Part shown: piece by piece, positions 34,551-37,967 of the stretch
How positions within the stretch are numbered: the first letter of the stretch is position 1
How the letters are laid out: every line of letters begins with the position of its first letter
NCBI GenBank assembly: GCA_020427985.1
Contig: JAGQNR010000002.1
Span: 20,475 to 77,141, forward strand
DNA: 56,667 nt
Reading direction: 5' to 3'
Source of the DNA: Candidatus Saccharimonadota bacterium
Lineage (GTDB): Bacteria > Patescibacteriota > Saccharimonadia > Saccharimonadales > UBA4665
Position numbers and translations under genes: made by a program
Notes under the pieces: model-generated
The model's input: only the letters and a program-made list of their open reading frames with translations
Told to the model about the DNA's origin: nothing
Databases searched by the model: none

Positions 34551-35231
34551 ATGTCGCGCAGTAATGTAGTGCCAGCCTTTTTAAACCAATCAACCTATGC
34601 AGCTATACGGCTCCAAATGGTTGCCGTCGCTCCCAGCCTACCTGGCGCAGCAACTTTTTTTCCGAAAGATGCCGACTAGACCACTCTTCCAACCCACCGC
34701 AATACCGACGCCTCACTTGTTTGACAACTTGCTCAGGTGCTTCATCCCTTAATAGGTCTCGAAGTTCTAGCCCCAGCGCCCACTGCTTTTGCAATTACTG
34801 AGTATTCGGCATTGCCCACGATATCAGCGTCTCAGAGCTTCTTCTCTCAGCATGTTCGAACTACCCCACACTTTAAGACCATCTGTGCTAAACAAAGAAA
34901 AATGGCAGACGCCGCAGTGCGTCATAAGGAAGTAAAACGGCTTCGAAGTACTTTCGACGGGCGTCAGCATGTTTGTGTAGTCGACCAGTATGTAGCCAGT
35001 GGTACCACTGTTAGTATCGCCGGCGATTTGCTGCATGCAGCCGGAGTACGGGATGTAAGTCTTATTAGGAGTAATTGGTATGAACATGCCCAAAGCTCCG
35101 ACGAGGATCCTATTGTGCCCGCTAAAAGCATACCTCAGGAATTTTTTAACCTGATTGGCCTACAAACGTACGAGAGCTACCAAGCATATATCGAACACTT
35201 TGCGAACAGCGGTTTTACGAATAAACTATAG
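34551..35231 (+). pseudogene. Phosphoribosyltransferase-like gene with two in-frame stops
   Basis: From ATG 34551 one frame reads MSRSNVVPAFLNQSTY onward, interrupted by TAG at 34677-34679 and TGA at 34722-34724, then open to 35231. The C-terminal part holds the PRPP loop VCVVDQYVASGTTVSIAGDL followed by a second strand-helix, as in type I phosphoribosyltransferases (canonical VDD is VDQ here). Translation from GTG 34737 could give a 164-aa fragment. I read it as a decayed gene of unknown substrate near the terminus. Confidence 0.55.
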
Positions 35232-35421
35232 TTGAACCAATTTATACAAAATGCGAACAAGGGCACAGCTCATTAGGGGCACCGACAAGAATGTGAGCTT
35301 GTAGTCAAAACAGTGTAACATACATAGAAACGCCAGTAGTAGGTCATGAATACATGCGCACAAAGTATAAATCGCAGAGTCAGAAAGCGTAGGGCAGAAC
35401 GCAAAGCGAACATATACACGA

Positions 35422-35449
35422 TGTCGCACAATGTATATTTTGCGACGTG
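35422..35449. other. dif: dif-like chromosome dimer resolution site
   Basis: A 28-bp site with XerC/XerD architecture: left arm ATGTCGCACAA, six central bases TGTATA identical to E. coli dif, right arm TTTTGCGACGT. The arms are mutual inverted repeats (GTCGCA.AA / TT.TGCGAC). It sits in the 656-bp gene-free gap 35232-35887, exactly where + strand genes from the left meet - strand genes from the right. XerC/XerD would resolve chromosome dimers here. No xer or ftsK gene is in the window. The rest of the gap is A/T-rich; I support no gene in it. Confidence 0.7.
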
Positions 35450-35887
35450 AATATTTATATCATTCAAACATACTTATGCCTCTCTGCGGGGGAGTTATTT
35501 ATGTATGGACCTCGAGTCTATGTAGTATTACTATTCTGCGCTCTTGTATGTACTTATACGCCGTATTAGCCCAGTTGTGTTGCTTGCTTACTGGGTCATT
35601 CTTAGAGATGTTGGAATGGACTAGTGTTTGCTTTTTTGTTATTACGCTATTGTTATATAGTTTTAGTAGAGTTTTCCACAGTTATCGTGTGAAAACATTT
35701 GCAATTTTGGGTATTTGACTTCTTTGTATGTAAATCCCCTTTTTGTCCCCTTACCTATACAAATATTTGACAATCCCCTACTTCTGTATATTTATATGTT
35801 TTTCTGAGTGAGTCATTATTATGATTTGCGAACATTTTATGAACATGAGTAGGGTATTAGTGGGGGAACTGTCGTGGTGGTACGTGG

Positions 35888-36802
35888 CTACTTGTAGTAC
35901 GCCCTTCCCTGCACGCGCATATCCAGATACTCTTTAGGCTCGGTGGTGCCCAAGTGTCTGATAGTAGCAGCCACTGCCCCGCACTGCTGCAAAATATCGG
36001 CCTTAAGATTGAGGCGAATAGCATAGCCCTTGTCATTAAGACGCACAACAAGTTCATATGGGTTTGCGGCAGGCAAAGTATAGCCTTTTACTCCGAGTCC
36101 AGCGGCCGTTAGCTGATGTTCAACCTGCAACACGGACGTGACGGTTGTCCCAGGCAAAAACTGTTCGCCTAGGCGAGGAAGCGTGCCAGACTCATCAACT
36201 ATGAGAGGGAGTTGTGCTGAGTCTGCATCAGAAGCCACAATAAACCCATTTTGGTCGATAGAGTAGGTATGACCGGCTACATTCAGCTTTGCGGCAGGAC
36301 GCGACAGAGTAATTGTCACAATTGGCGACGATCCAATGACCGGGGGGACGAGCAGCACCTCGAGAAGTTCTGGGTGCGCAGCTTGTAGCTGTTTGGCGAT
36401 ACCCTTACTGTTTACCGTTATTTTGGTGCGGTTAAGTAGGCTCTTCTTGAGCAACGTATCAACTTGTTTTTTGTAAATAGCCTTTTCGGCGTCATTTAGT
36501 GTAACTGTATCGCCGTTGGTGTGAGCGTGTATTGTTGCATCGGGCGACAGCGCAAATAGTTGAAAGATTACAAAGGCGGCTCCTAGAAGTATGATTGGCC
36601 GTACAAGAACTAGTAACGACGTAACATAGCTACTTCCAGCCTGTTTTGAACGTTTTTTGTAACTCAAAGCAGCCGACGCACGAGACTCATTACGTGACTG
36701 GGGAGCCTGCGCTGGACGAGATGAGTAGTAGGAAAATGTTTGTCGGCGCAATGGCTGCTGTGTTTGCCGCTGACGCGAACCGACCTTCTTTGATTCACGC
36801 AT
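35888..36802 (-). CDS. ftsQ: FtsQ/DivIB-like division protein
   Basis: 304 aa from ATG 36802, overlapping the murG end by 8 bases. The cytoplasmic tail is basic and Gln/Ser-rich (about 1-60), one membrane segment runs about 66-85, then a short POTRA-like domain and a beta domain follow (LSRPAAKLNVAGHTYSIDQNG, the typical FtsQ position). FtsQ links the late divisome to peptidoglycan synthesis through FtsL. It is the last gene of the division cluster in transcription order, immediately before the terminus region. Confidence 0.85.
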   Translation of the reverse strand: MRESKKVGSRQRQTQQPLRRQTFSYYSSRPAQAPQSRNESRASAALSYKKRSKQAGSSYVTSLLVLVRPIILLGAAFVIFQLFALSPDATIHAHTNGDTVTLNDAEKAIYKKQVDTLLKKSLLNRTKITVNSKGIAKQLQAAHPELLEVLLVPPVIGSSPIVTITLSRPAAKLNVAGHTYSIDQNGFIVASDADSAQLPLIVDESGTLPRLGEQFLPGTTVTSVLQVEHQLTAAGLGVKGYTLPAANPYELVVRLNDKGYAIRLNLKADILQQCGAVAATIRHLGTTEPKEYLDMRVQGRAYYK

Positions 36803-37967
36803 GTGTCTTGCCGCCAGCCTTCCATAAAATTGTGGCCAATGCTTTGGTGGCGTCCGGGCGTGCAAATTGTGCTAAGTTTTGAGACAGTACTTTGCGACGA
36901 GTTGGGTCTTGAAGGAGCGTTGCTGTTTGGGCCAAAAGCGTTTCGGGCTTCTGTAGGTCAAGCTCTTCAACTACAATAATGGCATTGTTCTTCACATATG
37001 CAGTAGCATTTTTTAGTTGATGGCCACCGGTCAGAAGCGGATTTGGTACAATGATACATGGCTTTGCTTGCAAAGCCAGTTCGGCCAAATTAGTGGCGCC
37101 GCCACGTGCAATCACTACATCTGCTGCCCCGCTATAGGCATATAAATTCGGCAGAAAGTCTCGTACAATGACTCTCTTTCGTAGTTCAGCTTCTAGGTTT
37201 TTTGAATATGCTTCGCTCACATCAACCTCGTGTTTCTGACCAGCAGTATGCACAATACAAAGTCCGGGGAACATACGTAGTAACTCTCCCGAAATATGCA
37301 GCAGAGCGTCATTGAGCCTCTGTGCGCCCAAGCCACCGCCCGTCACTAACAATACCAACTCATATTGTTCAAGGCCAACCAACCGTTTGTAAGCAGCCTG
37401 ATGCTTTGCACCGACTTGCTGATATGTGTCAGCTACTGGTACCCCGACAGTGACCGTTTTATCTCGTGGATAGGGGTAGAGCGCCGCATCTAGGGCTACA
37501 GCATGTTTGGTAGCCCACTTGGCAATAATTCGATTAGCGAGACCGGGAATAGCATCAGAGTCATGGGTGACATAAGGAATCTTGCGTAGGGCCGCAGCGA
37601 GCCCCACCGGTACTCCTACAAATCCTCCTTTACAAAACACTACATCTGGTTTAATTTTACCCAGAATTCTCCAGGCCTGCCAAATACCAATAAGGGCCTT
37701 AAAGGCGTCTCGAAGATTGAGGCCAATGGTGTGTACGTCGAGTAGCTGCGCTATTCCTTGCCCGTGGTACCTTCTAAACTTACCAGCCTGAACCGTCTGT
37801 ACTTCATCGATAATTGGCTGTTCCGCCACCATAGAACCAAACCTATCGCCTGCCTGTCCGATATAAGTAATCTGTACGTCGTTGTGATACTGCTTTATCT
37901 CATGCGCGACCGCTAGAATTGGGGTGATATGCCCCCCTGATCCGCCGCCTGTCATTACTATCTTCAT
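36795..37967 (-). CDS. murG: UDP-GlcNAc:lipid I GlcNAc transferase
   Basis: 390 aa. ATG 37967 follows GGGAGG. GGGSGGHITP opens the N-terminal Rossmann domain, LVTGGGLGAQRLN the second, and ARGGATNLAELALQAKPCII plus PNP bind UDP-GlcNAc. It makes lipid II on the inner face of the membrane. The start lies 68 bp inside the ftsW coding region, and the end overlaps ftsQ, so the three genes are translationally linked. Confidence 0.95.
   Translation of the reverse strand: MKIVMTGGGSGGHITPILAVAHEIKQYHNDVQITYIGQAGDRFGSMVAEQPIIDEVQTVQAGKFRRYHGQGIAQLLDVHTIGLNLRDAFKALIGIWQAWRILGKIKPDVVFCKGGFVGVPVGLAAALRKIPYVTHDSDAIPGLANRIIAKWATKHAVALDAALYPYPRDKTVTVGVPVADTYQQVGAKHQAAYKRLVGLEQYELVLLVTGGGLGAQRLNDALLHISGELLRMFPGLCIVHTAGQKHEVDVSEAYSKNLEAELRKRVIVRDFLPNLYAYSGAADVVIARGGATNLAELALQAKPCIIVPNPLLTGGHQLKNATAYVKNNAIIVVEELDLQKPETLLAQTATLLQDPTRRKVLSQNLAQFARPDATKALATILWKAGGKTHA

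Follow-up and report, generated by a model that had tools for sequence, protein, structure and literature searches.

A putative dif site in Saccharibacteria that appears displaced from the replication terminus

Results

Gene layout and anatomy of the site

The window analyzed here is a 56,667-nucleotide stretch that belongs to a 978-kb Saccharibacteria (TM7) genome assembled in 45 contigs. Between about 10.6 and 35.2 kb its main genes lie on the plus strand, and between 35.9 and 56.6 kb on the minus strand, a switch that an earlier note on this DNA had pointed out and that is real and clade-wide. AT skew changes sign together with gene strand at the junction, and no GC skew sign change occurs there within the window. 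The division genes of the window (PBP/ftsI, mraY, ftsW, murG and, last, an FtsQ-like gene) form a cluster that ends at 35888, beside the junction, as had also been observed. The FtsQ-like gene has no Pfam match and was named by its place and its relatives; its end lies approximately 0.2-0.6 kb from the site described below in 63 of 78 loci. The gene on the left is not a conserved neighbor, being matched at only three of the compared loci. No Rfam families matched at the locus.

Between these genes lies the 28-mer ATGTCGCACAATGTATATTTTGCGACGT, in which 11-bp arms, pairing at 9 of 11 positions, surround TGTATA (Table 1). The site is real, and the inverted arms and the center are as the earlier note described them; its span is 35421-35448, one base to the left of the 35422-35449 given there. 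Judged from the window alone, the site is no better than chance: the 56.7 kb contain 13 places of 11-6-11 form whose arms pair at no fewer than 9 of their 11 positions, and the match of the 28-mer to E. coli dif, 18/28, is tied with that of another place. This doubt is removed because the site is conserved across genomes.

Table 1. Features at and around the site (window coordinates unless a genome is named)
Feature	Position	Strand	Remarks
Left neighbor gene	34737..35231	+	Stops 190 bp short of the site
AGGGCAG, nearest KOPS-like motif on the left	35391..35397	+	Points at the site
Putative dif (Xer recombination site), ATGTCGCACAA-TGTATA-TTTTGCGACGT	35421..35448	+	Conserved block of about 28 bp; single copy in own genome; found in 371/393 class genomes
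Left arm	35421..35431	+	Core GTCGCACAA nearly invariant in the class, about 2 bits per column over most of GTCGCACAA
Center, 6 bp, TGTATA	35432..35437	+	Presumed strand-exchange region; TGTATA, TATATC or TATACC in relatives
Right arm, inverted	35438..35448	+	More variable; altered in phage copies
DnaA-box-like nonamer TTTTCCACA	35672..35680	+	Conserved companion of the site
T-rich stretch with TTTGAC repeats	35714..35772	+	Strand-specific array; TTTGACTT at 35714, TTTGACAA at 35766
FtsQ-like gene, last of the division cluster	35888..36865	-
AGGGNAG, nearest KOPS-like motif on the right	35904..35910	-	Points at the site
Filamentous phage at the site in G111	G111:C1:124635-129646

Conservation of the site

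We searched 393 Saccharimonadia genomes for the 24-bp core GTCGCACAATRTATMTTTTRCGAC with at most three mismatches; most of the assemblies compared are metagenome-assembled genomes. The core was found in all but 22 of them, nearly always at one place, and the reversed pattern matched in one genome only. The motif is thus normally present once per genome, as would be expected of a dif site; few genomes of the class have several copies, and these exceptions were examined. Among 78 loci, information is confined to about 28 bp and the flanks are weakly conserved, with extra preferences for A at positions -10, -8 and -6 of the core. The flanking genes are convergent in 64 of these loci, and in 75 the site is intergenic, with no open reading frame of at least 100 amino acids covering it.

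Across the phylum, the site was found within three mismatches in 194 of 381 sampled Patescibacteria genomes, about 157 of them outside the class, with no reversed-pattern match among those listed. Approximately half of the other Patescibacteria carry the same site, at varying distances from dnaA, about 0.24-0.5 of the chromosome (genome lengths rounded). The literature that we searched names no dif site for Saccharibacteria or Patescibacteria, which does not prove that none exists.

Xer recombinase and FtsK

A PF00589 recombinase is encoded in 370 of the 393 class genomes and in that of the window. The latter protein has 302 amino acids and is closest to XerC/XerD. It scores about equally on the XerC and XerD models, without reaching the equivalog cut-off of either, and narrowly exceeds that of the archaeal XerA model (228 bits against 220); XerH and XerS are weaker sequence matches. 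A second match in this genome is a 118-amino-acid fragment. Of 15 single-contig genomes, 11 show a single PF00589 match each. The earlier description of an XerCD site therefore holds as regards an Xer-type, dif-like site; the recombinase pair is doubtful, since most genomes have one full-length Xer. The xer gene lies approximately 145-190 kb from the site in three genomes (G204, G068 and G073). FtsK gamma was searched for in the window's genome, where a 772-amino-acid open frame contains the motor and gamma domains (gamma E-value 6.6e-31).

Polarized motifs converge on the site

Words of six to eight nucleotides were scanned exhaustively in five sampled chromosomes, with the two gene strands treated separately. 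Ordinary skewed words keep their sign across the site to 0.5 of the chromosome; AGGGAA, GGGGAG, AGGGCA, GCAGGG and GGGCAGGG flip polarity at the site, and GGGCAGGG fits the E. coli KOPS consensus GGGNAGGG. In four chromosomes, the best flips of AGGGNAG fall at 0.335, 0.315, 0.290 and 0.340, compared to sites at 0.329, 0.316, 0.287 and 0.330, and a flip forced to 0.5 lowers the fit by 13-46 lnL. The fifth chromosome has a best flip that is tied with the site, and the penalty for 0.5 there is 5.7 lnL. When the chromosomes are pooled, the best flip is 0 kb from the site, with a ratio of 27:1 in the 20 kb before it and 0:26 after it.

AGGGNAG was picked from these same five chromosomes; a test on 24 loci (the window and 23 others, one of them from G393) is largely independent of that choice. 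There, AGGGNAG/GGGNAGGG motifs point toward rather than away from the site by 259:24, and the control motifs AGGGNTG (73:95) and AGGGNCG (67:80) show no such preference. In the window, 14 such motifs on the left point toward the site and 2 away, and on the right 8 and 1. By context, the toward:away ratio of AGGGNAG is 184:1 in sense, 13:12 in antisense and 62:11 in noncoding DNA, the antisense value standing against 4:66 to 13:187 for controls; the polarity is thus seen in all three contexts. The same letters in other A/G-rich orders lean too (median difference 0.61 versus 1.44 for AGGGNAG). The polarity thus partly shares the coding-strand bias that flips at the site, yet it persists in noncoding DNA.

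Replication skew turns beyond the site

The earlier note had taken the locus for a replication terminus, with the extremum of GC skew expected there. The distance between dnaA and the site is approximately 0.21-0.35 of the chromosome in 14 genomes assembled as single or large contigs, and in each of them the site is on the minus strand with respect to dnaA. Skew was analyzed in five genomes (G093, G039, G012, G106 and G393) sampled at 40%, two of which were read fully near the site. A two-segment GC-skew fit places the origin at dnaA (0.00-0.05) in all five and the turning point at 0.50, 0.47, 0.48 and 0.43 in four and at 0.35 (raw) in G012, compared to sites at 0.29-0.33. If the turn is forced to the site, the fit loses 2.2 lnL in G012 and 19-32 lnL in the other four; these values are indicative, as adjacent 5-kb bins are not independent.

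Once gene strand is separated, skew at fourfold-degenerate sites shows no change of sign between the site and about 0.5 in G093, G039 and G106, and in G393 it weakens gradually from 0.41 onward. In G012, where few plus-strand genes are available, the strand-corrected skew is sparse, and the raw turn is close to the site. The fully read stretches of G393 and G039 agree with a skew that turns beyond the site. A terminus based on raw GC skew was rejected once gene strand was separated, as the raw drop is largely a change in gene strand. No sign change of strand-corrected skew was found at the locus in these relatives, a result that counts against the terminus half of the earlier proposal and not against dif. 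Replication skew and gene/KOPS polarity are uncoupled at the site. Known dif sites of Proteobacteria and Firmicutes lie at most 3% from the skew shift (PMC3025954); the Saccharibacteria site is off by roughly 10-21%.

Between the site and about 0.5 in these five genomes, genes are mostly head-on to the inferred fork, a zone that spans a fifth of the chromosome.

Phages at the site

G111 contains two direct copies of the site 5.0 kb apart, the second of which keeps the left arm and center and not the right arm. Between them lie genes for small coat-like proteins, Zot and a rolling-circle Rep. Among IMG/VR contigs, L306 has the order host FtsQ-like gene, site, Zot, Rep, and L304 is a 3.9-kb contig that bears Zot and the site. 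Zot was found in 14 of the 393 class genomes, and lies at most 4 kb from the site in all four genomes for which both positions are listed (G068, G111, G165 and G256). A looser search gave 51 viral stretches, many with an inverted CGAC right arm that is absent from the query. The phage copies retain the left arm and center and have an altered right arm.

Longer viral contigs (L305, L307, L303 and others), some with terminase-like genes, also carry the 28-bp site; in L303 it is next to an integrase of phage type, at what is probably a provirus junction.

A companion array beside the site

A one-sided, conserved array, comprising a DnaA-box-like nonamer followed by TTTGAC repeats, lies 200-400 bp from the site. 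TT[AT]TCCACA was found in 58 of 73 loci, between +24 and +480, at about +200 to +350 from the core; 61 of 62 such nonamers near the site share one orientation, and the background is 0.07 per kb. TTTGAC/TTTGC T-rich repeats occur beside the site at 3.98 per kb on one strand and 0 on the other (background 0.022), an enrichment that is partly due to selection, as the motif set was chosen from the same loci. In the sampled genomes, clusters of this set were found only at the site itself. The array may be part of the dif locus. A second oriC was considered and rejected: the site usually has a single box, whereas several flank dnaA, which is also where the skew origin lies.

Discussion

We conclude that the 28-bp site is almost certainly dif, because four independent lines agree: the recombinase, FtsK, the KOPS-like polarity and the phages. 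The dif-like site proposed from the window alone thus proves to be clade-wide, a single conserved copy of 28-bp 11-6-11 form in genomes that encode Xer, with FtsK gamma in that of the window and polarity converging on it. Position at the GC-skew shift, which is usual for dif without strictly defining it, was not found. We hold with high confidence a reading in which Xer, FtsK and KOPS-like motifs would resolve chromosome dimers about 0.3 of the chromosome from dnaA, and forks, as placed by strand-corrected GC skew, would usually meet near 0.5. An XerC/D-like tyrosine recombinase, usually the sole one, would exchange strands between two copies of dif; FtsK would be guided to the site by AGGGNAG/GGGNAGGG motifs, and its gamma domain would activate Xer. 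On this evidence, dif appears displaced by about a fifth of the chromosome from the apparent end of replication.

A reading in which dif is also the true terminus, with the skew turn near 0.5 as a relic or artifact, would account for the joint flip of gene strand, AT skew and KOPS-like polarity at the site, and for the sharp drop of raw GC skew there in G393 and the turn at 0.35 in G012. However, the replication component at fourfold sites persists to about 0.5 in three genomes and weakens gradually in G393, the raw drop at the site mostly reflects the change in gene strand, and the displaced pattern holds across several families. We consider this reading unlikely.

Use of the site by mobile elements could suggest that it serves them only and that the real dif is elsewhere, given that inoviruses use it, as does at least one provirus junction with an integrase. 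However, nearly all genomes have the site, most of them without detectable Zot, KOPS-like polarity converges on it and not on the skew turning point, and in the known parallel, CTX-type phages of Vibrio use dif itself (PMC5357621); this is very improbable. That the site is an operator or other regulatory palindrome without recombination would fit its near-palindromic, intergenic and highly conserved nature and the nearby DnaA-box-like element. It was rejected, and we give it next to no weight, since the convergent neighbors usually leave no promoter facing the site and phages carry it and integrate at it, keeping left arm and center and changing the right arm; KOPS-like motifs also converge on it.

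Stable uncoupling of the FtsK/dif axis from the replication axis could be combined with a composite dif locus in which the nonamer/TTTGAC array has a further role, a proposal to which we assign a small probability. The array might, for instance, allow DnaA to unwind the DNA there, pause forks or couple dimer resolution to the state of replication.

The predicted system shares with that of E. coli the 28-bp 11-6-11 site, in the window with the TGTATA center, an XerC/D-like recombinase, FtsK gamma, GGGNAGGG-type KOPS pointing at the site, and filamentous phages integrating there. It differs in that there is usually one Xer instead of two and the site lies about 0.3 from dnaA, not where GC skew turns. 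XerS/difSL and XerH/difH likewise have one recombinase per genome, whereas the Saccharibacteria site is of the 28-bp type and xer is not adjacent to it. By analogy, the nearest parallel for the position is the dif of Thermococcales, 122-142 degrees from oriC (PMC2958812). The archaeal XerA/dif system also has a single Xer, a site off the antipode and short polarized motifs pointing at it; in contrast to archaea, which have no FtsK and whose termination zone could not be located by skew, Saccharibacteria have FtsK with gamma and G-rich KOPS-like motifs. As with IMEX filamentous phages of the CTX and VGJ types, phages with Zot and a rolling-circle Rep lie at dif with one arm changed in the phage-side site; here the hosts are Saccharibacteria, and the likeness is known from sequence alone.

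Because these places coincide in well-studied bacteria, it has been debated whether dif is where replication ends and what determines GC skew and chromosome polarity (PMC3025954, PMC3317982). Saccharibacteria could offer a natural experiment, as dif and the replication end appear apart across the whole class. In E. coli, an inversion that displaces the polarity junction makes FtsK translocation essential (PMC2585057); Saccharibacteria may live permanently with such a displaced junction. The dif of Saccharibacteria and much of Patescibacteria could also serve as a marker when genomes are finished and when phages of these epibionts, most of them uncultured, are sought.

In three genomes (G182, G374 and G045), two contigs each end within tens of bases of the site, which is only suggestive of element insertion; about 0.8 such genomes are expected by chance. 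In two others, variants of the dif site form inverted pairs 1.2-1.4 kb apart in repeated surface-protein cassettes (L298 and L299, from G069 and G275) that are FISUMP-like by eye, and the variants read in frame as VAQHTLRD. Inversion between the paired variants would swap C-terminal cassettes. Xer or a close relative may drive such a shufflon in G275, whose single PF00589 match lies about 10 kb from the inverted pair.
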